Source of the DNA: Patescibacteria group bacterium
GTDB taxonomy: Bacteria; Patescibacteriota; Minisyncoccia; Phycocordibacterales; Phycocordibacteraceae
Length of the DNA: 43,300 nt
NCBI GenBank assembly: GCA_004296925.1
Contig: SCVI01000039.1
Span: forward strand, 1-43,300
Reading direction: 5' to 3'
The position numbers and the translations under genes are program-made. Below are positions 1 to 41,088 of this stretch, in pieces. Every line of letters starts with the position of its first letter. The stretch's first letter is position 1. The notes under the pieces were generated by a model. That model had not been told where the DNA came from and ran no database searches. It saw only the letters and a list, made by a program, of their open reading frames with translations.

Positions 1-600
1 TTTGAAACGAACATCGTTATGGAAGGTGGCTCTATTGAGCTAAATGGTGCGGGGACATTAATGACTACCGAGCAATGCCTTCTAAACAAAAATAGAAACC
101 CCGAACTCTCACGTGAACAGATTGAGAAGTATTTAAGTGACTATCTGAACGTGCGTCATTTTATATGGCTTAAGGAAGGCATTGAGGGCGATGATACTGA
201 CGGACACATCGACGACATTGCGCGGTTTGTAAATGAAACAACAGTGCTTTGTGCATATGAAGATGATGAGTCGAGCAAGAATCACGCAATCCTCAAAGAA
301 AACTTTGAAATACTACAAAACGCCACTGATCAGGATGGCAACAAACTTAACGTAGTAAAACTCCCTATGCCAGGGGTTGTGCCAGCGCACGACCGCGTAC
401 TCCCTGCCAGCTACGCAAACTTCTATATTGGAAATACTAAAGTAGTTGTTCCAACATTTGGAACCGAGAACGATGCAAAAGCATTAGAAATTATCCAATC
501 AGTATTTCAGAAAAGAAAAGTGGTTGGCGTAGATGCAACATATCTTGTATATGGACTTGGTACTTTCCACTGCATGAGTCAACAACAGCCAGCGATCTAG
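1..600 (+). CDS. aguA: Agmatine deiminase, C-terminal part (5' truncated by window edge)
   Basis: The frame is open from base 1, so the N-terminus lies outside the window; about 199 residues are visible. Agmatine deiminase hydrolyses agmatine to N-carbamoylputrescine and ammonia in the arginine-to-putrescine route, in the cytoplasm. The segment DDTDGHIDDIARFV matches the conserved TDGHxD block of the peptidyl-arginine/agmatine deiminase family. The end, GLGTFHCMSQQQPAI, matches the family's GGGNIHCxTQQxP block that carries the catalytic cysteine. The stop overlaps by 4 bases the stop of the convergent small membrane gene. The context supports the assignment: a deoxyhypusine-synthase-family gene follows and a SpeA-like decarboxylase lies about 5 kb on. 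The N-carbamoylputrescine amidase partner (aguB) is not seen here and could lie upstream. Confidence 0.9.
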   Translation, partial: FETNIVMEGGSIELNGAGTLMTTEQCLLNKNRNPELSREQIEKYLSDYLNVRHFIWLKEGIEGDDTDGHIDDIARFVNETTVLCAYEDDESSKNHAILKENFEILQNATDQDGNKLNVVKLPMPGVVPAHDRVLPASYANFYIGNTKVVVPTFGTENDAKALEIIQSVFQKRKVVGVDATYLVYGLGTFHCMSQQQPAI

Positions 601-899
601 CGCAAGAACACGAGGATAGAAACAAGATAGAGAATAACAAGAACGGCAAAAGTGCCGAGGGTTTTAAAGAAAAACGTAACAGCTTCTTTTTTCTTGTTAT
701 CAAAATAGAGACGAAGTGGTTCAAAGATAAAAAGAAAACCCATAGTTAGAGCTGAAAGAACGAAGAGTCCGAGTACCCCTATAGGTATGAGGAGAGTATT
801 CTCGAGAGACTTAACTGACGTGAAAGCTCCCATAGTAAAGGCAATACCAACAATATAGAGAGCCGCGAGCGAAGCGTTTACAAATGGACTTAAGCGCAT
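597..899 (-). CDS. Small three-helix membrane protein, unknown function
   Basis: A 100-residue protein of unknown function. It shows three hydrophobic stretches (about residues 8-28, 36-60 and 78-98) with a short basic loop (DNKKKEA) before the last one, so it is probably an integral inner-membrane protein. It starts with ATG at 899, converges on the agmatine deiminase gene and overlaps its stop by 4 bases, which is typical of compact genomes. It is transcribed away from the divergent deoxyhypusine-synthase-like gene that starts at 1001. No catalytic motif is visible. Confidence 0.65.
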   Translation of the reverse strand: MRLSPFVNASLAALYIVGIAFTMGAFTSVKSLENTLLIPIGVLGLFVLSALTMGFLFIFEPLRLYFDNKKKEAVTFFFKTLGTFAVLVILYLVSILVFLR

Positions 900-1000
900 G
901 TGTTCACTATACTCTTCTCTTTAAGATATAAGTTACGGCGACCTTAAAGAACTTCATTGACACTCGGTGTCGGTGAGCTACCATTCACTATAAGATTTAT

Positions 1001-2116
1001 ATGAATACAAACAATTCAGAAGATAAAAAGATAGACAATCTTTCGCCTGAACTCAAAAAGTTCATCGAGCCAGATAACAATCAAGTTGTTTCAGGAACTG
1101 TTTCTGACTACGTAAAAGCAAGCTCTTCCCCAGTAAGTGCCTATGCTGAACGCACCTTAAACCACACCAACGGTGGTGCGACGCTTCAAGCGGCACTCTG
1201 GCTAAAGGAGCATATCAAAAATGGCGGTAAGGTAGTGGTAACGCTCGCTGGTGCGCTCTCCTCTTTCCAGATTGGAATAATGCTCGCAGAATTAATTCGT
1301 CAAAACAAAGTGCATTTGGTTTCTGCAACGGGAGCAAACCACGAAGAATCGTACTACCGCTACGTTGCTCACTCCCATTACGCATACATCCCTCGCTACA
1401 CCGAACTAACTCCTGAACAAGAAGCAGAACTAAGAGACGCAGGACTACGCAGAATTACCGACACATTCCTTCCAGAAGATGAAAGTGTTCGAATTATGGA
1501 ACCGCACCTTTTGAAGATGTGGCATGAAGCGGAAGAAAAAGGAGAAAGTCACTACCCACACGAATATTTCCGTAGACTCTTCGCGGAAAAACTTATTACA
1601 CCTGACTCAAAAGCTAACCCGGACGATTGCTGGACATACGCGGCATATGAAAAAAATATTCCTATCGTGATCCCTGGATTTGAAGACTCAACGATGGGCA
1701 ATATTTTTGCAAGCTACACCTACAAAGGTCCTCACAAAAAAGCAGGCGACCCTTCTGTTGATCCAAAGGTTATGAAGTCAGGCTTAGAGTACTTCCACCT
1801 TATGTACGACTGGTATATGAAGGAATCTAAAGACGCTCCCATTGCCTTCTTGCAGCTCGGTGGCGGTATTGCGGCTGACTTCCCTATTTGCGTCGTTCCT
1901 TCCATTAAGCACGACCTTGGCAACCACAACGTACGCGACTGGGCAGGCTTTATTGAAATAGGCTCATCCCCAATGTCTTACGGCTCATACTCAGGTGCCG
2001 GCGGAAAAGAAAAAATTACGTGGGACAAACTTTCAACCGACTCCTACTACAACATTATCCAAAGCGACGTGAACGTCGCCTTCCCTTGGATCGCTGCCAT
2101 CCTTTTGGATCTTTAA
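1001..2116 (+). CDS. Deoxyhypusine synthase-family protein (probable polyamine aminobutyl transferase)
   Basis: A 371-aa protein of the deoxyhypusine synthase (DHS) family, matching the family's length (human 369). The NAD-binding/active-site order is recognisable: a GALSSFQIGIMLAELI segment, SATGANHEESYY (family: TTGANxxxD), a LGGGIAADF segment, and EKITWDKL near the C-terminus, where K343 aligns with the catalytic lysine of the family's EAVSWGKI block. Eukaryotic DHS moves an aminobutyl group from spermidine to a lysine of eIF5A. Bacterial members more often make or rearrange polyamines such as homospermidine. The neighbouring agmatine deiminase and SpeA-like decarboxylase favour a polyamine role here. 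The EF-P at 40335 has Gln where a modified Lys is expected, which argues against EF-P modification. Its 3' end overlaps the convergent Nudix gene by 4 bases. No Shine-Dalgarno is visible. Confidence 0.85.
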   Translation: MNTNNSEDKKIDNLSPELKKFIEPDNNQVVSGTVSDYVKASSSPVSAYAERTLNHTNGGATLQAALWLKEHIKNGGKVVVTLAGALSSFQIGIMLAELIRQNKVHLVSATGANHEESYYRYVAHSHYAYIPRYTELTPEQEAELRDAGLRRITDTFLPEDESVRIMEPHLLKMWHEAEEKGESHYPHEYFRRLFAEKLITPDSKANPDDCWTYAAYEKNIPIVIPGFEDSTMGNIFASYTYKGPHKKAGDPSVDPKVMKSGLEYFHLMYDWYMKESKDAPIAFLQLGGGIAADFPICVVPSIKHDLGNHNVRDWAGFIEIGSSPMSYGSYSGAGGKEKITWDKLSTDSYYNIIQSDVNVAFPWIAAILLDL

Positions 2117-2610
2117 TCTGAAATAGCTTCCAGAATCGCCAGATCTCTTGGAACAATGTATATCTTGCCTTCAATGCTCGTTGCCTGATTTTCAGCTAGT
2201 ATTTGTTTGGCTTTCTCGAGCGACATCCACACCAATACAAAACCTCTGTCTTTCTCATGTTGAGTAAAGTCAGGAATACCCTTCACGCCTTTTACCTTTG
2301 CGAGATAACAGTATGAAATTTGTCGGATAGTGAAAATCTTTCTGTACTCAAGAACCGAACCTATTTCCCTCTCTACTTCAATCTCGCATCCTATTTCCTC
2401 TACGCTCTCTCTCTGTAAAGCAGATAATTTATCTTCAGAACCTTCAAGACCACCGCCCGGTAACTTGTAGTAGTTTTCCTTGGAAACATGAAGTAACGCA
2501 ATCATTCCATCTTCGTCAAAAACAACCGCCCTCGCAGCTTCTCGCAAAGGGTAACCTTGAGCCTCGTCTTCAGAAACGTTTTCAGGATTGAGAAATAAAA
2601 TTTGCTTCAT
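2113..2610 (-). CDS. Nudix hydrolase
   Basis: A 165-aa Nudix-family pyrophosphohydrolase of unknown substrate. The Nudix box (Gx5Ex7REUxEExGU) is present at about residues 53-75: GGLEGSE, seven residues, then RESVEEIG, with the metal-binding glutamates intact; Ser replaces the usual hydrophobic residue after RE. The ATG at 2610 is chosen. An upstream TTG at 2637 would add only MGEGDYNDT and overlaps a purine-rich run (GGGGGAAGGTGAT). The gene lies between two unrelated genes and probably acts in nucleotide housecleaning. It could also be an accessory, transferred gene. Confidence 0.85.
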   Translation of the reverse strand: MKQILFLNPENVSEDEAQGYPLREAARAVVFDEDGMIALLHVSKENYYKLPGGGLEGSEDKLSALQRESVEEIGCEIEVEREIGSVLEYRKIFTIRQISYCYLAKVKGVKGIPDFTQHEKDRGFVLVWMSLEKAKQILAENQATSIEGKIYIVPRDLAILEAISD

Positions 2611-2713
2611 TGTGTCATTATAATCACCTTCCCCCAATTCGCGACCTCGAGTTAGAACCGCATTCGGTTAAGCCCTGCAAAGCGGATTAACTACATTTAA
2701 CATCCTCAGAACA

Positions 2714-2727
2714 ACGCGTCTCGAGCA
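2714..2727. repeat. Imperfect direct repeat flanking accessory gene (left copy; right copy 4301-4314)
   Basis: ACGCGTCTCGAGCA here and ACGTGTCTCGAGCA at 4301-4314 match at 13 of 14 bases and bracket the DUF5677-like gene. They could mark an insertion, but CTCGAG is palindromic and the repeat is short, so chance is possible. Confidence 0.35.
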
Positions 2728-2732
2728 TATGA

Positions 2733-4268
2733 CTACTTTCCTCCAGTTATAAATTTCAGGAATTTATAACTGCTTTTATACCTCCATCTTGAATAAAGCT
2801 CTTTTAAAAATGACCTCTTTTCAGGATTCGGTTCATGGACGATTTGTAAACTTAGGTTTGGATATTGCGACTCTATGAGCTGCAAGACTAAGTTAGTTAT
2901 TTTTACAATATCCTCTAAGACGCCTGGCAAGGTGTATACGCTTACCGACGGAATCGGATGAAGTCTGTGTAGTGGGTTCGCGCAAATTGCAAAACTTGAT
3001 TCACGGATGGCACCCCAGCTTCCGTGCGAAAAAGTAGATGTCCAATCGTAATACGCGTCGTATATATCTTTGCACCCAGCTTCTTCGCTCAACTTTCTTA
3101 AAGTAGAGCTGGTCCAATGACCCAGTTCTATGTCCGAAAATTCTTCCCAACGGTCTTCGTTCGCGATTTGCTTTAAAAACTTCTCGTCTATGAATGCTGG
3201 CTTATCATTCGAATCTCTCGCTTTTAAATAGCTGAGTTTCATTTGACCAATCCCATAATTTCTAAATTCATTCCAGATATTTGAATCATCCTTCTTTATT
3301 AAGTATGCGAGCGTTATAAAAGATTCAACACATGACCGGAGAGTCAATCTGCCGACAGCACCTCGAGAAAGGTTTGTCACAACCATCTCATCTAAAAGTC
3401 GTAAAACGTAGAATCCAGTACCAAAAATGGTGTCGTGTTTAGCATCAATAGCACTCGAATTATCTGTTTTTAGAAAGTGCAGTAAAAGAAGATGTCTTGC
3501 CCGATTCACTTGAGTGTTGGTTATCTTAATCTTATCTCTCCTTTGTTCTTCTCTAGGCATAGGAGCACATAGCGTTGTTTGCAGACATGCTTTCCAAAAA
3601 TCTTCCGGCCATTCGCTTGCTTCAGCGGGGAAAGATATTTCGCTTGCTCGTATCGAAGGACGCACTTCGCGCATATCGCCCTCGTTAGGGTAGTTCACTA
3701 TCGGAGAACCCATTGATCGGGGCATAGAGAATTTTCCGGTAAGGATTAAACAAAAAACCTTTACCCAGCGACAATCCGTAGCTTCTTGAGATTGGTGGTC
3801 AAGAGTAACCAGAACACCCTTCGTTAGAAAGTCAGCTACTTGTGCCTCAGTCCCAGCCATAACATTCCCAAATACTTCTTCCCAATCCTTGTATGCGGGA
3901 AGTCGAGGAAAGAGAACCAACGTCTGGAGGATTGATTTGGCATGAGGGTGTGAATCATGAAGTAAATTTAAGAGTGCAACTCTATCTGCTTTTGGCCAAG
4001 AGGCGATGCCTGATATCGTAACGTCCGAAAGTGCTTCGTGACCCATGACGAAGGCGCCAACTTTACGGAAAATATCTAAAGCCTCCTCTCTTGTTAAGTT
4101 TGCGATGAGAAGCACCGCCCAAAGCATTTGAGGCATTCTGTCATCCTTCCACGAAGAAGGAGTCATGGGCATTTGACGGATAGGCGGTTTTAAAACAGAA
4201 CCCTCTCTTTTATGCTTTGATATATTACTCGATCTGTTTTCTTCTTTATCTTTTTTAGATTCTGACAT
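2733..4268 (-). CDS. Hypothetical protein resembling DUF5677 family
   Basis: About 511 residues from ATG at 4268. An in-frame GTG at 4328 would add 20 residues; the ATG is preferred because a charged, low-complexity N-terminus (SESKKDKEENRSS) follows it. The C-terminal half (about residues 300-460) resembles DUF5677-type helical proteins: LTLRSCVESFITLAYLIK, then a conserved Y-G region, then a TFSHGSWGAIRES segment. No enzyme motif or membrane helix is clear. The gene sits beside the tRNA-Gln gene, between two imperfect 14-bp direct repeats (2714-2727 and 4301-4314), and looks accessory. DUF5677 proteins are often found in defence or mobile regions; a role in defence is only a guess. Confidence 0.65.
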   Translation of the reverse strand: MSESKKDKEENRSSNISKHKREGSVLKPPIRQMPMTPSSWKDDRMPQMLWAVLLIANLTREEALDIFRKVGAFVMGHEALSDVTISGIASWPKADRVALLNLLHDSHPHAKSILQTLVLFPRLPAYKDWEEVFGNVMAGTEAQVADFLTKGVLVTLDHQSQEATDCRWVKVFCLILTGKFSMPRSMGSPIVNYPNEGDMREVRPSIRASEISFPAEASEWPEDFWKACLQTTLCAPMPREEQRRDKIKITNTQVNRARHLLLLHFLKTDNSSAIDAKHDTIFGTGFYVLRLLDEMVVTNLSRGAVGRLTLRSCVESFITLAYLIKKDDSNIWNEFRNYGIGQMKLSYLKARDSNDKPAFIDEKFLKQIANEDRWEEFSDIELGHWTSSTLRKLSEEAGCKDIYDAYYDWTSTFSHGSWGAIRESSFAICANPLHRLHPIPSVSVYTLPGVLEDIVKITNLVLQLIESQYPNLSLQIVHEPNPEKRSFLKELYSRWRYKSSYKFLKFITGGK

Positions 4269-4332
4269 CAACTGAATTATAAACCTCTCAGAGTAAAAAT
4301 ACGTGTCTCGAGCACGATAACCTATCACGACT

Positions 4333-4434
4333 TGGCTGCAGGGGAAGGAATCGAACCCTCATTGGCCCTTTTCAGAAGACTCTTAAATTAAAGTCCTCTG
4401 AGAAGGGGCTGTTCTGCCATTAAACTAACCCGCA
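4333..4434 (-). tRNA. tRNA-Gln(CUG) with a 27-nt intron-like insertion in the anticodon loop
   Basis: The tRNA is read on the minus strand, with 5' end at 4434 and an encoded CCA at 4335-4333. The acceptor begins UGCGGGU and ends CCCUGCA-G-CCA, giving U1-A72 and discriminator G73, as in bacterial tRNA-Gln. The D arm is GTTT-AATGGCA-GAAC and the T arm is GAGGG-TTCGATT-CCTTC. Between D and T arms there are 27 extra bases. Removing them, using the CTTCT direct repeat at their edges, leaves GCCCC-TTCTGAA-A-AGGGC, an anticodon loop with U33, CUG and A37, and a normal 72-nt body. The extra sequence folds as a 10-bp hairpin (TCAGAGGACT/AGTCTTCTGA, one G-U pair). A near-consensus promoter lies just upstream. 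It may be spliced or it may be a pseudo-tRNA. Confidence 0.75.
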
Positions 4435-4443
4435 ATAGCATAC

Positions 4444-4472
4444 ATTATAGCATACTTTGAATCAAAAATCAA
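4444..4472 (-). promoter_or_regulatory. Promoter of the tRNA-Gln gene
   Basis: On the minus strand: -35 TTGATT (4472-4467), 17-bp spacer, -10 TATAAT (4449-4444), with an extended TGC before the -10. The predicted start near 4437 leaves almost no leader before the tRNA. Confidence 0.75.
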
Positions 4473-4634
4473 TCACTTTATGCACAATAAGCACAGAGGT
4501 CACAACATTTGCCACTAAATCTATACTGTCACCATCTTAAGAGCGAGTACTTACTTTCTGGAACATTGGTATAACAAAATTAAACCATCCATGCTAGTCG
4601 CGCAAATTAGAGAAGAAACCACCACATATATCGA

Positions 4635-5396
4635 CTATTCTTTATTCAATAGAGTTTCAGCGACCCGAACCGAGTGTCCAAAAATAACAGCACCGATAAC
4701 GCGATCATCAATTTCAGTTGACGTTGAGGACTGAATTGAGAATCCGCCTTTTATTAATAAGTTTGATAAGTCAGCAACTATTGTTGAAAATCTCTCTTCC
4801 ACTTTCCCTTTTGGTAAAAGCAAGAACTTATCGAGATCGCCCTCTGCAATCCCTGTGGTGAGATAGAGAATATTTTCCGCATAAACCTTTAGATGTTTAG
4901 GATCTTTTAATGGATACAGATCCCAAGCCGAAGTAAATAAGTTTTTGTTTTTACTCTCTATTGACTCCTTACCTTTTTTCTTCAAAGGCATGACCTCTTT
5001 CTTTAAGGCTGGGTCGAGCGCCTTTTTTGTCGACTTTTCTTCTGTTATACGAAAGACGTAACCCGCTCGGACAAAAGATTTATAAAACACCAGTAGCGTG
5101 TCTAACTTTTCCGTATCTCTGCGCATCATCCTCCCTATATTTGTGATACCCCATCGCCAATTACAATAACGATTGATTGAATATTGCGTCTCGTTAGAAA
5201 ACAACTCTGGGTAATTGTAGAACGAATTGTACGCAGCAATCCAGTTCGCGTCATTTACACTCCCAGTAACATCAAGTTCAATTATTGGAACAAAAAGAGC
5301 CGTGCCACATTTTCTGCAGTAACGATCTATGTCACCCACTTTAAGGGTCACCTCCACTCCGCAGTTTTTACATTGAACAGTTCCCTCCACAAACAT
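4635..5396 (-). CDS. Zinc-ribbon hypothetical protein
   Basis: A 253-aa protein of unknown function. The N-terminus is a zinc ribbon: Cys9-xx-Cys12 and Cys27-xx-Cys30 in a CKNCG...YCRKCG arrangement. The remainder has a lysine-rich middle (about residues 120-150) and no transmembrane segment. The start ATG at 5396 places the first CxxC immediately after the N-terminus, as in many zinc-ribbon proteins. It is downstream of the SpeA-like gene on the same strand but separated from it by a strong terminator hairpin, so it is probably transcribed separately. It may bind nucleic acid or a protein partner; this is inference. Confidence 0.6.
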   Translation of the reverse strand: MFVEGTVQCKNCGVEVTLKVGDIDRYCRKCGTALFVPIIELDVTGSVNDANWIAAYNSFYNYPELFSNETQYSINRYCNWRWGITNIGRMMRRDTEKLDTLLVFYKSFVRAGYVFRITEEKSTKKALDPALKKEVMPLKKKGKESIESKNKNLFTSAWDLYPLKDPKHLKVYAENILYLTTGIAEGDLDKFLLLPKGKVEERFSTIVADLSNLLIKGGFSIQSSTSTEIDDRVIGAVIFGHSVRVAETLLNKE

Positions 5397-5527
5397 ATCT
5401 TAACTCGGAACAAAATAGATACAGAACTTAATAACAAAGAGCGTCTCAGTACATCTCCGATGCTAAGAGCTTTGGATGAAGGCGGAAAAATTGAACCATG
5501 CCCTACCATACCCCCACCTAAACGAAT

Positions 5528-5594
5528 AAAACGCGCAAAAAAGAGAGTAAGGCTTGGCCTAGCGGCCTTGAGCGCTCTCTTTTTTGTGCGTTTT
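5528..5594. terminator. Large bidirectional terminator hairpin
   Basis: Two 20-nt arms (AAAACGCGCAAAAAAGAGAG and its near-complement, one wobble) enclose an inner GGCC-tagc-GGCC stem. The T-rich outer arms would end transcription of the decarboxylase gene on the minus strand. Confidence 0.7.
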
Positions 5595-5607
5595 ATGAAG
5601 TGACCTT

Positions 5608-6978
5608 TTACCACCCAAACTGCTTCCCAACATCTTCACTCGTCTCACGTCGTCGTATCAATTTTATCTCACCGTTTTGGCAGATTATCTTTGCAGGAGA
5701 TGAGAGGAGGCAGTGGTGTGAGGCAAGGGCGTCTTGGTATGCTCCTGTGTCATAGAAGGCAACGTACTGGCTCTCACTGTCATCCAAATCCTCAAGGCGA
5801 GGCATACTAATATTTCCACCTCCTGCGGTGTATTTATCGTCTGAGTCGCACGAAGAGCCAGCAAACCACACACGCTGGAGTTTGCGGTTCTTCATGTTGT
5901 TTACTGGTGTCACGTGCCACTTTTGCTTCAATGCCCACGTGTCCAAAAGGTCGTTCATAAAACTTCCGTCAATGACGTACCACTTGCGAGTTCCCTCTTC
6001 ACTCACCGACTTCTCGGTCAAAATTTTGTAGATAGTAAGTTGCGCTGGTGCGGCAACGTAGCGTCCCCACTCAACAATTAAGTTTGGGTGTTTCACTCCT
6101 GTTTTGTCGCAGTAGTTTTTTGCAGTCTTAACGATTCGGTTAATAGCAGACTTTCCGTTATAAAACTTCCCTTTCTTTTCATAAGGAACTCCAGCACCTC
6201 CTCCCATATCAATAGTGTCGAGTCCTGGGTTTTTCTCACGAAGTTTTTCGTATATCTCAAGCGCACGCTTTAGTGGCTCAATGAGTCCATCTACTTTCTC
6301 AATTTGCGATGAGATGTGGTAGTGAAGCACACTTAAGTTTCTTATTTTGCCGAGCTTTAATATTTCATCTTCACGAAAACCATAACGGTTGAAGCGCTTA
6401 TCCCAGTGCGACTGCACACGGACGCTCATGTTAAGGCGAATGCCTGTCTCGCCCTTGAACTTCTTAAAGCGTTCTAACTCGTTGTAGTCTTCGATGATTG
6501 GAATAACGGTAAGACCTTTTTCTTTGAGCTCCTCAATGAGTGCAATGTACTTTTCAGTTTTGGGACCATTACAAATAACCCGAATCTTCGGGTTGAATCT
6601 CTGCTCCATTAACATTTTCTTCACGAGCCATAGCTCGTTTACGCTCGCAACATCAAAGTGTCCTCCTTCTGACACAACCGGCAACACAAACTCTTTGTTC
6701 TGATTTACCTTCATTGCGTAGTGATAGTAGAACTTTCCTTTGTAGTTGTTGAGCTTTATGTACGCATCAAAAATATCAATCAAGCTTCGTACCCGATTTT
6801 CAAGAATAAACGGAAATACAATTTCGAGAGGTGTTCCGTATTTTTTTATTAAGTCAGCAACGTTGTACTGATAGTTCCCTTCCTTTACCAAAAGACTCCC
6901 ATCGGGAGTGATGTCGAAAAACTGCGTGTTGTACTCCTCGTGACCGAGTTTCCAAAATTGTTTGTAGTTCTTTTTCAA
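5608..6978 (-). CDS. PLP-dependent biosynthetic arginine decarboxylase-like enzyme (fold III)
   Basis: A 456-aa alanine-racemase-fold PLP decarboxylase, most like SpeA: arginine to agmatine, cytoplasmic. The PLP lysine is K90 in YAMKVNQN (SpeA: IKVNQ). HYHISSQI (219-226) and the phosphate-binding glycine loop MGGGAGVPYE (258-267) follow. The catalytic cysteine is C377 in GSSCDSDD (SpeA: CDSDG), and YDTGAYQ lies at 409-415. It is shorter than E. coli SpeA (658 aa), so the extra SpeA domains are missing. Lysine, ornithine or carboxynorspermidine decarboxylase activity cannot be excluded. With the agmatine deiminase at the left edge it would give putrescine from arginine. A long terminator hairpin follows the stop. 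Confidence 0.85.
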   Translation of the reverse strand: MKKNYKQFWKLGHEEYNTQFFDITPDGSLLVKEGNYQYNVADLIKKYGTPLEIVFPFILENRVRSLIDIFDAYIKLNNYKGKFYYHYAMKVNQNKEFVLPVVSEGGHFDVASVNELWLVKKMLMEQRFNPKIRVICNGPKTEKYIALIEELKEKGLTVIPIIEDYNELERFKKFKGETGIRLNMSVRVQSHWDKRFNRYGFREDEILKLGKIRNLSVLHYHISSQIEKVDGLIEPLKRALEIYEKLREKNPGLDTIDMGGGAGVPYEKKGKFYNGKSAINRIVKTAKNYCDKTGVKHPNLIVEWGRYVAAPAQLTIYKILTEKSVSEEGTRKWYVIDGSFMNDLLDTWALKQKWHVTPVNNMKNRKLQRVWFAGSSCDSDDKYTAGGGNISMPRLEDLDDSESQYVAFYDTGAYQDALASHHCLLSSPAKIICQNGEIKLIRRRETSEDVGKQFGW

Positions 6979-7238: not shown

Positions 7239-7476
7239 GTAATTTCATACTACACTTCTCAACTCGCATGTCAAAAAACCTCTTTTTTGAAGAGTATTTT
7301 CACAAAAACCAAAGTCATTAAGTAGCTCCTTTTCTTCTGTCCCGTTTACCCCGTTTACGACTTCGCTTTTGTAGCGAACGGCTGCCGTGCGTTATTTTGG
7401 GACTATACGCAATGGTCCGTTCTCACTTGAACATCGACCGGATAAGTTTCGATACGAGATCGAAACGGTTTCCGCA

Positions 7477-8933
7477 TGGAATTGTTCCACGACCAGCTTC
7501 CGCTAGCCGTGCCTTGTTACAACTTACTCCCTGTCACCGAACTTGCCGTGGGTCGCGATAAACGCGAACGTCGGGCATTCCCGGCTCCCTTGAGTTGATG
7601 GGCGGTGAGTACAAAACTCGAGAACGTATTCACCGTAGTATGGCTGACCTACGATTACTAGCGATTCCAGCTTCAAGAGGTCGAGTTGCAGACCTCTATC
7701 CGTACTGAGGACGCGTTTTGGGATTTGCTCCACCTTACGGTATTGCTTCCTTTTGTCGCGCCCATTGTATCACGTGTGCAGCCCAAGACATCAGAGGGAC
7801 ATGCTGATCTGGCGTCATCCCCACCTTCCTCTCCCGTGAGGGAGCAGTCTCGCCTGACATTTAAAACAGACAACGGGGGTTGCGTTCGTTTACCCACTTA
7901 AGGGAACAGCTCAAGCCACGAACTGACGACGACCATGCATCACCTGCTATACACCCTCGAAGGCTGACTTCCTTTCGGAAGCCGTGCAGTATAGTTTCTA
8001 GTCTTGGTAAGGTTCTTCGCTTACCTACGAATTAAGCCACATGATCCACCGCTTGTGCGAGTTCCCGTCTATTCCTTTGAGTTTTAGTCTTGCGACCGTA
8101 CTACCCAGGCGGTTCCCTTAACGCGTTAGCTTCGCCACGAAGAGGGTCGATACTCCTCATAGCCAGGGAACATAGTTTAGGGCGTGGACTACAAGGGTAT
8201 CTAATCCTTTTCGCTACCCACGCTTTCGTGCCTCAGTGTCAGGAATGTCCCAGTACGCTGCCTTCGCATTCGGTGTTCCCCATGATATCAACGGATTTCA
8301 CCCCTACACCATGAGTTCCACGTACCTCTTACATCCTCTAGCGTTACCGTTTCCCCTCGAGCCTTCGGGTTGAGCCCGAAGGATTTAAAAGAGGACTAAT
8401 AACACCACCTACGCACCCTTTACGCCCAGTAATTCCGGATAATGCTTGGGGCCTCTGTATTACCGCTCCTGCTGGCACAGAGTTAGGAGCCCCTTATTCA
8501 TGAGGTACTGTCAAAACTTCATCCCTCATAAAAGATGTTTACGCCCCGAAGGACTTCATCCACCACGCGGCGTCGCTCCGTCAGACTTTCGTCCATTGCG
8601 GAAGATTCTCGACTGCGGCCTCCCGTAGGAGTAAGGACCGTATCTCAGTTCCATCGGTGGGGGTCAGCCTCTCAGCTCCCCTAAACGTCATAGCCTTGGT
8701 GAGCCATTACCTCACCAACTAGCTGATATTACGCAGGCTCCTCCTAGAGCGGATTGCTCCTTTACACCTTAGTGACCATCGGGAATTGCGCCATCTTTCG
8801 ATGGAATATGCCCGACTCTAGGGTAGATTCCTACGCGTTACTACCTCGTCTGCCGTGGGTCTAAACCCACTCGACTTGCATGCCTTATCCACGCCGCCAG
8901 CATTCATCCTGAGCTAGGATCAAACTCTAAGTA
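7477..8933 (-). rRNA. rrs: 16S ribosomal RNA
   Basis: The complete small-subunit rRNA is read on the minus strand. The 5' region contains AGAGTTTGATCCTAGCTCAG and the 3' region AAGTTGTAACAAGG. The terminal helix h45 is intact (ACGGCTAGC-GGAA-GCTGGTCGT). About 1457 nt, shorter than the E. coli 1542, as is common in CPR. After h45 the tail is GGAACAATTCCA rather than GGATCACCTCCTT, so the anti-Shine-Dalgarno is missing. The decoding site has U1396, A1405-U1496 and A1409-U1491. The 530 pseudoknot is UCC/GGA instead of GGC/GCC. The gene is unlinked to 23S (about 12 kb away). An 8-bp hairpin (7446-7466) lies just past the 3' end. End positions are estimated from alignment by eye. Confidence 0.97.
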
Positions 8934-9088
8934 AGAACCTCATGCCTCCAATTGAAGGGCACGAGATTCGATAAACGGAACAGAAGAAAAGGAAGAAATT
9001 CCTATTTCCTCTTTGTGCTCTTAATAACTTTCTTTACTGGTTTTTTGTGATTGCACTTACTATTGAATTTTCAAAGATCGTTTGGGGC

Positions 9089-20816: not shown

Positions 20817-20961
20817 CAAATAGAGCTTGTTATGGATTTCCACGCTTCCCCGCAGAATGGACGAATTAGTACTTCTCAGCTCAATGCATTGCTGCATGTA
20901 CACTTAAAGCCTATCAACGTGATCATCTCTCACGAGTCTCAACGATACCTAATCTTGGAGG

Positions 20962-21000
<39 letters not shown>

Positions 21001-21287
21001 CGACATAGCTACTCTGCAATGCTCCTGGCGGAACAACAGATAGACCAGAGGTCAGTTCATCCCGGTCCTCTCGTACTAAGGACGACTCTCCTCAAGTATC
21101 AACGCTCATAGTAGATAGGAGACCAACCTGTCTCACGCACTTCGTTTCGTGTGTGTTAGAAACACACACGAGCGTTCCTTACGGAACCCCAAATTACTTT
21201 GGGAGTCGGACTGTAACTTCATCCTTCAATTTTTTTACAAAAATTGTGTTGGATGATCAACATTCAGTCTCTCGAGGCTAAGCAGCT

Positions 21288-21355
21288 CTGAGTACTGAGT
21301 TCCAAGTCTAGAGTTAAAAACTCTGGACTCAAAACTAGAAACTCTGAACTAACTC
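21288..21355. repeat. Palindromic repeat copy A (inside intron)
   Basis: An imperfect palindrome made of GAGTTC/TAGAGTT-type words with an AT centre (GAGTTAAAAACTC). Related copies lie at 21565-21627 and 24032-24104. Confidence 0.65.
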
Positions 21356-21564
21356 ATTCCTTCGATATTGTCCTACCAAAGTAGGATTTCATCGATATTA
21401 GTTGATTTCTTCACCCACATTCCTATAGGTGACCGCCGTGATTATGATTGACTCTTCTCACCCGACCAGTAATCGGGCTTCGATTTAAAAATCGAATATT
21501 ATATTTCTAAGACGAAAAAACTTTCAATAACTCTCTCTATGGGGTTCAGACTGTGAAATTGTCC

Positions 21565-21627
21565 AGAGTATTGAGTTCAGAGTCTAGAGTTTTAAAACTC
21601 AGAACTAGGAACTCGCAACTATGAACT
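21565..21627. repeat. Palindromic repeat copy B (in intron P1 loop)
   Basis: Same family as copy A, centre AGAGTTTTAAAACTC. It sits between the 5' splice site and the guide sequence, so it extends the P1 loop. Confidence 0.65.
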
Positions 21628-21632
21628 GCTTC

Positions 21633-21664
<32 letters not shown>

Positions 21665-24031
21665 ATGGCGAACAGCCATACCCTTGGAACCTTCTCCAGC
21701 TCCGGGATGTGGTGAGCCGACATCGAGGTGCCGAACTGCGCCGTCGCTATGGACGCTTAGGCGCAACTAGCCTGTTATCCCCAGAGTAACTTTTATCCGT
21801 TGGGCTTCCCCTGCATCTAATGCATAAGGTCGGATCACTATGCTCCACTTTCGTGTCTGCTCGATATGTACATCTCACAGTTAAGCCAGCTTGTGCCATT
21901 ACACGACCGGCACGGTTTCCATTCGCGCCTAGCTGACCTTTGTAGGCTCCTCCGTTACTTTTTGGGAGGAGAGCGCCCCACTCAAACTGCCTGCCACGCA
22001 CTGTCTCCCAGGTGTTTATCCTGAGGTTAGAAATTGCAACACATAAGAACGGTATTTCACTGGCGAGTCCACAACAACCGAAACCGTTGCTTCAACCTCT
22101 CCCGTCTATGCTACGCATATGCGTCACAATCCCAATACGAAGCTACAGTAAAGCTTCTGGGGTCTTTTCGTCTAACTATGAGTAACCGGCATCTTCACCG
22201 GTACTGTATTTTCACCGAGCAAGTCCTCGAGACAGTTTCCAACTCGTTACACCATTCGTGCACGTCTGAACTTACCAGACAAGGAATTACGCTACCTTAG
22301 GACGATTATAGTTATCGCCGACATTGACCAGGGCTTATAAAGACCAGCACATAGTATTGCTACCATGCACCATCCTTAGTTGACCTTCTGGCATTGGTCA
22401 GGTGTCACCCCCTATACATCCTCTTGCGAGTTCGCAGGGAGCTGTGTTTTTGGTAAACAGTCGATTGGAAATCTTTCGCTGCGGCCCCCTAAATTAATAG
22501 GAGGCAGGCCTTATCCCGAAGTTACGGCCGCTGTTTTGCCGAGTTCCTTGAGGACCTCTCACTCGTTCGCCTTAGTCTACTCGACCAGACCACCTGTGTC
22601 GGTTTGCGGTACGGGCTCACACCAACTGAAGCTTAGAAGATTTTCTTGGAAGCGCGCTCCATGCCATTTACGCTGACGAATCAGCGCATTTCCGCTCCGC
22701 TTGGATAGCCTACATCAAAGTAGTTTCTTCCGGATTTTCCTAGAAGATATCCTCACGGCACGAACACACATCCAGTTGTGTGCGGCATGTACAGCCCTCC
22801 GTCTCTCCATCGCATTGGTGCGAGGCCAGGGAATATTAACCCTGTGTCCATCGCGTTCGGCTTTCGCCATTTGCTTAGGCCCGGCTAACCCTTGGTTGAT
22901 TATCAGTGCCAAGGAAACCTCGGTCTTTCGGCGTACGGGGTTCTCACCCGTATTGTGGTTACTTGTGCCGGCATTCTCACTTCCAAACGCTCCAGAATGG
23001 GTCACCCCTTATCCTTCATCGCGGTTTGGAACGCTCTCCTACCGATCATTTTTGTCGAAACAAAAATAATCCCTCAGTTTCGGTACCGTGCTTAGCCCCG
23101 ATTATCTTCGGCGCAGAAATTCTCGGTGAGTGAGCTGTTACGCTTTCTTTAAATGGTGGCTGCTTCTAAGCCAACATCCTCACTGTTTCAGAATTTCCAC
23201 TTCCTTATGATGCACTCAGCGCGGATTTAGGGACCTTAACTTGAGATCTAGGCTCTTCCCTTCTCGACGTATGGAGCTTAGCCCCCATCGTCTAACTGCC
23301 TGATTCTAGCTCTCTGGTATTCGGAGTTTGATAGGGTTAACGAGATTGCTCCCTGTTTAACCCTTCCAGTGCTCTACCCCCAGGAGGAACATCAGACGCC
23401 AGCCCAAAAGCTGTTTCGGAGAGAACCAGCTATTACCAGGTTCGATAAGCTTTTCACTCCTTACCACAAGTCATCCCAAGACGTTGTACGATCTACGGGT
23501 TCGGGCCTCCCCTTTTCTTTCGAAAAGGTTCACCCTGCTCATGGCAAGCTCACCTGGCTTCGGGTCTTACGTACGCGACTAAACGCGCTATTCACACTCG
23601 GTTTCCCTTCGGCTCCAACCTTACGGTCTTAGCCATGCCGTGTACGTAAACTCGCCGGCTCATTCTTCAATAGGCACGCCGTCGAGGTGCAAGCACCTCT
23701 TCGACTCCTTGTAGATGTGTGGTTTCAGAACTATTTCACTGTCCTTACCGGACTACTTTTCACCTTTCCCTCACGGTACTGGTTCACTATCGATCTCTGT
23801 AGATATTTAGCCTTGCCGGTTAGTGCCGGCAGATTCATCCAAGCTATTCATGTCTCGGATTACTCAAGAACGACAACAAGAAAGTGATTGGTCGTTTCGC
23901 ATACGGGACCGTTACCCTCTAGGGTTCTGCTTCCCAGCAGATTCTGCTACGACAATCATTGTTAACTTTCCTTCCATAAATGGAACGTCATCGCCTTACA
24001 ACCCCCACGCATCACATGATGCACGATGCAT

Positions 24032-24104
24032 CAGTTCTGAGTTCCTAGTTCTGAGTTGAGAGTTTTAAACTTCTCTGGACTCGGAACTCTGTACTCTGAA
24101 CTTC
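24032..24104. repeat. Palindromic repeat copy C (in a 23S 5' expansion)
   Basis: Same family, centre GAGAGTTTTAAACTTCTC. It is enclosed by a longer stem (CGCATCACATG / CATGTGATGCG) and is part of the mature 23S region, or is removed by fragmentation. Confidence 0.65.
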
Positions 24105-24557
24105 AGCATCACATTCCATGTGATGCGTAGGTTTGGGCTTATCCCGTTTCGCTCGCCGCTACTCGGGGAATTCCAGAATCCCGGTCTCTATGCAAATAAA
24201 TTCGCACAGAGACCGGGATATCCTGTTGGTCTCTTTTCCTCTAGGTACTGAGATGTTTCACTTCCCTAGGTGCACTTCTCGAACACGCGTTCGAGATATC
24301 TGTCGAAGACAGATAGGTTTCCCCATTCGGACATTTTCGGATCAAAGCTTGCTCGTCAGCTCCCCGAAACATTTCGTCGACTGCTACGTCCTTCATCGCT
24401 CTACAGAGTCAAGGCATCCACCACACACCCTTCAAACTTCCACGAGGAAGCTTGAAAACCACATAACGTTACGCTCATTTAATTTAACGAACGTCTCTAA
24501 ATTATGCTCGGTGTTCTCTTTATGATGTGTTGTCAACGAACAGGTTTCTAAGGGAAT

Positions 24558-40925: not shown

Positions 40926-41076
40926 CTGCTCAGTTCAGAAATGAAAGTGTGCTTTCATTTCGCTCGCTCTACGTCGGCAGTAATAACAACGCATGGGAAG
41001 GCGTTTTTGTTTCAGCCATCCTCGGCTCGGAAATGAAAACTAAGAAGCTTTCATTTCCCTCGCTCTACGTCGGCTG
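40926..41076. repeat. Two tandem hairpin repeats after efp
   Basis: Copies at 40926-40980 and 41013-41076 share GAAATGAAA/TTTCATTTC arms and CTCGCTCTACGTCGGC. The outer stems differ but remain paired (CTGC/GCAG and CAGCC/GGCTG), so the structure is conserved rather than only the sequence. Confidence 0.6.
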
Positions 41077-41088
41077 TAAAAGCATAAT

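Follow-up and report, generated by a model that had tools for sequence, protein, structure and literature searches.

Genomic context and structure of a tRNA-like gene

In the window (the whole 43,300-nt stretch of DNA analyzed here), a gap bordered by an arginine decarboxylase-like gene on one side and by a NUDIX gene on the other holds a tRNA-like RNA gene flanked by a DitA-like gene and an orphan gene (Table 1). The matching gap in two genomes of the same genus (G005 and G006) contains neither the RNA nor the DitA-like gene nor the orphan, and hence the RNA gene can be regarded as part of an accessory stretch. The DitA-like gene has no homologue in 60 relatives and no sequence match in PDB; the orphan has no Pfam, NCBIfam or PADLOC match and no homologue in 99 relatives. 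With regard to the Aditi system, DitA is present, the gene downstream of it is the NUDIX gene and the one upstream is the orphan without a PADLOC match; on an S. salivarius plasmid, DitB directly follows DitA. Positions 4536-4567 of the window look like half of an inverted-repeat element that G005 has in its corresponding gap (L076:8906-8937), and are possibly the trace of a small mobile element. Elsewhere in the window, an intergenic repeat (40951-41081) recurs in two genomes of the genus, where it immediately follows the arginine decarboxylase-like gene (L077:5370-5467, L075:5396-5464), and the agmatine deiminase, deoxyhypusine/homospermidine synthase-like and arginine decarboxylase-like genes at 19-6978 together suggest a polyamine locus. 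The 23S rRNA match (20849-24444) contains long insertions and extends over 3.6 kb, as opposed to 2.9 kb for the model; it is not linked to the 16S gene (7475-8935).

Table 1. Features of the tRNA-like gene and its surroundings, in window positions.
Feature	Position	Strand	Basis or remark
DitA-like (DUF5677) gene	2733..4268	minus	64 nt downstream of the RNA; PADLOC DitA (E=3e-81), Pfam DUF5677
Whole tRNA-like RNA gene, 102 nt including encoded CCA	4333..4434	minus (runs 4434 to 4333)	RF00005 score, three full-length homologues, covariation
Acceptor stem 3' side, G73, encoded CCA	4333..4343	minus	Sequence, alignment
Variable loop of 4 nt (A46, no residue 47) and T arm	4344..4364	minus	Alignment, pair counts
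28-nt insert: apical hairpin and 3' end predicted to pair with, and mask, the anticodon loop	4370..4397	minus	Folds, compensatory changes
Anticodon loop UUCUCAG	4398..4404	minus	Anticodon CUC at 4400-4402
Canonical anticodon stem 5' side	4405..4409	minus	Pairs with 4365-4369; 18 of 20 cells paired in the family
D arm	4411..4425	minus	U11-A24 and U13-G22, both invariant in the four members
Acceptor stem 5' side	4428..4434	minus	U1 at 4434; pairs with 4337-4343 (alignment, pair counts)
Promoter-like TTGATT-17-TATAAT	4444..4472	minus	Ends 9 nt before the RNA; consensus match only
Orphan 253-aa gene	4635..5396	minus	Shares the inserted stretch with the RNA and lies upstream of it

A tRNA-like gene had been proposed at this position from the sequence alone, and this is borne out, on the minus strand, by a match of 32.7 bits to the Rfam tRNA family (RF00005, gathering score 29); both the window RNA and the homologues described below present a tRNA cloverleaf with D and T arms. 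ARAGORN misses the gene with default settings; once introns are permitted, the gene is reported as having one of 28 nt. The U1-A72 pair, G73, encoded CCA and CTTCT repeat listed in that sequence-only reading are all present, but its assertion that all other tRNA parts are normal is inexact, for the window copy contains two helix mismatches (U7/C66 in the acceptor stem and C31/A39 in the anticodon stem). Its 27-nt insert must likewise be corrected, as removal of the 27 nt that lie between the CTTCT repeats leaves an 8-nt loop and the C31/A39 mismatch, whereas removal of 28 nt restores a 7-nt loop, and the identity it assigned, tRNA-Gln(CUG), gives way to an aligned anticodon CUC in the window and YUC in all four members of the family. 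The upstream promoter that it called strong does correspond to a promoter-like match just before the gene, with agreement at 10 of 12 consensus positions and a TG preceding the second hexamer, but two such matches occur in the region where 1.3 are expected. Directly upstream of the three homologous copies (G538, G043 and G657), no clear promoter-like matches were found.

The folded RNA strand consists of an acceptor stem, a T arm and a long anticodon arm. The middle of the insert forms an apical hairpin, in agreement with the hairpin proposed earlier, and the anticodon loop is paired with the 3' part of the insert. The upper arm of the predicted fold has 12 contiguous pairs (z of -2.93 with respect to shuffles, of which 1 in 200 folds as well). 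Across the family, 55 of the 60 cells of this upper helix are paired. U35 and C36 have unpaired probabilities of at most 0.04 in the predicted ensembles, and thus the anticodon is predicted to be paired in the unspliced RNA, instead of lying free in a 7-nt loop as in a tRNA. Judging from these folds and the alignment, the insert just 3' of the anticodon extends the anticodon arm into a single hairpin with some 20 base-pair layers. Since the anticodon pairs with the insert, decoding would be blocked as long as the arm stays closed.

A rare family conserved through compensatory changes

A covariance model built from the window copy alone and run over 394 related genomes retrieved three full-length homologues, in G538 (74.9 bits, 102 nt), G043 (71.7 bits, 102 nt) and G657 (69.0 bits, 101 nt), with ordinary tRNAs scoring at most 54.7 bits in the same search. 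These homologues belong to the Paceibacterota (Patescibacteria) and come from separate public assemblies. Their Rfam tRNA scores range from 51.5 to 56.7 bits, the window copy having the lowest of the four, and their inserts measure 28, 28 and 27 nt, next to 28 nt in the window. In the four-way alignment 96.3% of cells pair, a share that is favored by the fact that the consensus structure was drawn partly from the same sequences; changes on both sides of a pair are less explicable in this way, and they are found in 18 of 34 pairs, 11 of them in the extended arm, with one pair showing four different base pairs in the four sequences. In the shuffle control, none of 500 replicates reached the observed value for four of five measures, two-sided changes included, and sliding the partners by 1-3 columns yielded 2-6 two-sided pairs. 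The aligned sequences show compensatory changes that preserve the extended arm as well as the canonical anticodon stem and the tRNA shell. The window RNA and its three homologues make up a rare and conserved Paceibacterota family of RNAs with the shape of a tRNA.

No members beyond these four were found among the relatives (394 genomes), the class (383) or the phylum (379, with at most ten candidates scored per genome), and an exact pattern run over 84,980 species genomes returned only contigs of the same three homologues. Tight patterns gave no members in viral contigs, and loose-pattern matches there were other odd phage tRNAs, outside the family. A 143-nt match in G541 (L119:2456-2598; G541:C1:34455-34597) was also rejected as a non-member, being a tRNA-Gln(CUG) gene plus a partial copy; a second copy of the 3' part of this tRNA gene lies directly after it, as integration at a tRNA gene leaves. 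Within the family, D-arm type and anticodon group the window copy with that of G043 and the G538 copy with that of G657, contrary to taxonomy, and this grouping, although based on few sites, suggests horizontal movement of the RNA gene.

Mixed identity and redundancy of the gene

The anticodon at the homologous position is CUC in the window and UUC, CUC and UUC in the homologues, and none of the four members carries the YUG anticodon of tRNA-Gln. The loop reads C/U32, U33, Y34, U35, C36, A37 in all of them, with U33, U35, C36 and A37 invariant, so that among anticodon bases only the one at the wobble position varies. Of the tRNA-Glu determinants listed in the literature (PMC9976931), the RNA has U35, C36, A37, U11-A24, U13-G22, A46 and no residue 47, and lacks the weak determinant G1-C72. 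All four members have instead U1-A72, a pair found in tRNA-Gln and relied on by amidotransferases (PMC9976931), together with G73 in three cases and A73 in G657. According to an automatic parser, U1-A72 occurs within this genome only in Gln and Asn tRNAs, and the D-arm/variable-loop set is also found in two Gly tRNAs. The shell, as read from its sequence, joins a Gln-type acceptor with a Glu-type anticodon. It resembles the tRNA-Gln of the same genome in U1-A72 and G73 and its tRNA-Glu in the YUC anticodon, and it shares with both of them U11-A24, U13-G22, A46 and a four-base variable loop; it departs from both in its mixed marks and its closed, extended anticodon arm.

The carrier genome (787 kb in 129 contigs, judged 97.7% complete) contains 39 other tRNA genes, and among these Gln(CUG), Gln(UUG), Glu(CUC) and Glu(UUC) are all intact. 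The sequence-only reading had advised looking for another tRNA-Gln(UUG/CUG) gene in the genome; both are there and intact, and with the second tRNA-Gln(CUG) one half of what it held would refute it (such a gene, together with reads of only the unspliced form) is in place. Given these intact Gln and Glu tRNAs the RNA gene is surplus, and a role as replacement for a missing tRNA was rejected. All four carrier genomes have intact Gln genes; for Glu, such genes were observed in the carrier of the window (G000) and in G538. In the assembly, tRNA-Ile(GAT) and Leu(CAG) were not seen; in G005 these two genes adjoin the agmatine deiminase gene, at which the contig of the window begins, and their absence is thus likely due to a contig break.

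Association with defense genes

Defense genes flank all four copies of the RNA gene, which lie in variable regions, but they belong to different systems and no partner is shared. In G538 the RNA lies between an AbiL pair (AbiLi 2e-73, AbiLii 1e-10) and a KAP NTPase gene with a SIR2-like gene, the KAP gene starting 2 nt after the RNA. The G657 copy is followed, after 17 nt, by the gene of an OLD/AriA-like ATPase that has a TOPRIM domain. The G043 copy lies between an MzaB-like ATPase gene and Fic and TOTE-type primase-helicase genes; near this RNA there are also a serine recombinase and a methyltransferase paired with a restriction enzyme. The G043 and G657 copies occupy a common chromosomal place near tRNA-Trp, with different cargo. 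As a control, 49 ORFs flanking 30 ordinary tRNAs of this one genome gave only a few PADLOC matches at 1e-5; if each flank matched at a rate of 6-12%, matches at all four loci would be expected by chance with a probability of approximately 0.0002-0.003. With four loci, a control drawn from a single genome, and generic ATPases that match many models in the RNA loci and the control alike, the link to defense is suggestive rather than proven. The RNA does not appear to be a general component of Aditi, as there was no tRNA-like match around four other DitA loci, and an origin of the insert as a palindromic repeat (MITE- or RPE-like) was rejected because the insert is single-copy in the genome when searched with up to 3 mismatches.

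Discussion

The structure of this RNA, its surplus status and its accessory location derive from comparison, and what we infer from them is a function. Our preferred reading, held tentatively and at somewhat less than an even chance, is that the family represents a conserved, normally non-decoding tRNA mimic of defense islands that acts, in conflicts where tRNAs are the target, as bait, guard or conditional tRNA. The RNA gene would be transcribed and the ends of its product matured as in a tRNA; the closed arm would make the RNA unable to decode, and tRNA-binding nucleases or synthetases, whether of the island or of a phage, might engage it in one of these three capacities. tRNAs are widespread targets of bacterial antiviral immunity, and the PARIS TOPRIM nuclease AriB, with a catalytic site like that of the double-strand-cutting RNase M5, cuts tRNA anticodon stems (PMC12409363). 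Two of the neighbors of the RNA are AriA-like ATPases with TOPRIM partners or domains and, given their resemblance to the PARIS pair, a bait or guard against tRNA-cutting enzymes would by analogy be the most concrete version of this proposal. Several observations speak against it. No partner is common to the neighboring defense genes, and the RNA is missing at four other DitA loci, which makes it no fixed part of one system; the family has only four members, and promoter-like matches are not clear directly upstream of three of them; and the invariant U33, YUC and A37 are easier to explain if the loop is exposed at some stage.

This invariant loop is in fact the best argument for a loop that is opened or freed at some point. 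It also favors the view that the RNA is a precursor tRNA whose insert is a true small intron in the canonical position, excised by a bacterial enzyme that has yet to be described. Such splicing would leave a Glu anticodon on a Gln-type acceptor, and hence either an unusual Glu tRNA or, after amidation, one that inserts Gln at Glu codons. The insert would not be a group I intron, for which the sequence-only reading had already judged it too small: such introns, which likewise interrupt the anticodon loop of some bacterial tRNAs, span some 200 nt or more, as opposed to 28 nt here, and the window has no Rfam intron match. It does lie immediately 3' of the anticodon, following residue 37 or 38, like protein-spliced tRNA introns, its place and length fall within the archaeal range (PMC4090602), its pairing with the anticodon resembles that of eukaryal precursors, and the canonical anticodon stem that splicing would restore is largely paired throughout the family, with only the wobble base varying in the anticodon. 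Nonetheless, the bulge-helix-bulge splice motif (described in PMC4090602) is absent from the predicted folds, and RtcB was not found in 40 genomes (the four carriers and 36 relatives) by a search that was positive in 9 of 14 controls, so that splicing by a known route is unlikely; the existence of intact Gln and Glu tRNAs also weighs against a precursor. Archaeal and eukaryal intron-containing pre-tRNAs hence share with this RNA a 27-28-nt insert just 3' of the anticodon and its pairing with the anticodon, but the RNA differs from them in being bacterial and surplus, in lacking a bulge-helix-bulge and a detected RtcB, in combining a Gln-type acceptor with a Glu anticodon, and in its defense-island location. 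On balance we deem a spliced precursor unlikely, though far from negligible. The earlier choice between unknown processing and a pseudo-tRNA must accordingly be recast, for homologues and compensatory changes argue against the latter and the known processing route finds no support, while a functional unspliced RNA had not been considered.

It is rather improbable that the RNA is a mere passenger, that is, a tRNA-derived element (an integration-site relic or a mobile-element tRNA) that travels with defense or integrative islands without a role in defense. The variable regions, the shared place of the G043 and G657 copies with its changing cargo, the serine recombinase and the subtype groupings that cut across taxonomy would all fit such an element, but there is no repeated copy of the RNA 3' end nearby, the insert has no second copy in the genome, and the extra arm shows strong two-sided changes, which implies that the RNA itself is under selection. 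A structured leader, made with the downstream defense gene as a processing or control element and cut at its ends by RNase P and RNase Z, would account for the three copies that lie just upstream of a co-oriented defense gene (at 2, 17 and 64 nt in G538, G657 and the window, respectively); it has only a small chance of being correct, as the downstream neighbor in G043 is convergent and the masked, invariant anticodon would go unexplained. Slimmer still is the prospect of a specific island-borne conditional tRNA, with a Gln-type body and a Glu anticodon, kept inert by its own hairpin until, under phage attack, this hairpin is opened or removed by a nuclease or in a repair event, which yields a growth-stopping miscoding tRNA or a bait for tRNA-cutting enzymes. 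Finally, the two helix mismatches of the window copy, its lowest tRNA score and the redundancy of the gene might point to a pseudo-tRNA or an assembly error, but the same structure in three independent assemblies, full-length and with compensatory changes, renders both very improbable.

If the mimic reading is true, an RNA player is added to the tRNA-targeting conflict, providing a concrete object to test; were the conditional-tRNA variant to hold, it would represent a new kind of RNA effector in antiviral defense. To our knowledge, no small-intron tRNA has been known in bacteria, and a spliced RNA would thus be the first, in genomes where RtcB was not found, and would require an enzyme yet to be described. 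Either outcome, masked mimic or spliced tRNA, is therefore informative. Phage T5 tRNA variants that resist PARIS offer a parallel, in that a tRNA variant is linked to tRNA-targeting immunity; these are, however, decoding tRNAs with point changes (PMC12409363), whereas the RNA described here is chromosomal, its anticodon is predicted to be blocked and its tie to tRNA cutting is putative. Viral and mRNA tRNA-like structures resemble it in a tRNA shell that is possibly used outside decoding, but here the cloverleaf is complete, the gene is a separate chromosomal one and several unrelated defense systems adjoin it. No described family with such features was found in Rfam or the open-access literature, which is weak evidence of novelty. 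Two other kinds of odd tRNA were observed in viral contigs. In three of them (L165:3276-3376, L171:2875-2973, L203:1879-1977, minus strand), shells in phage tRNA clusters retain acceptor, D and T arms and have the anticodon arm replaced by other short hairpins, scoring below the Rfam tRNA gathering score. In three others (L230:8971-9066, L216:737-832, L194:290-385, plus strand), phage tRNAs that ARAGORN calls tRNA-SeC combine a UCA anticodon arm with a second anticodon-like arm in the variable region.
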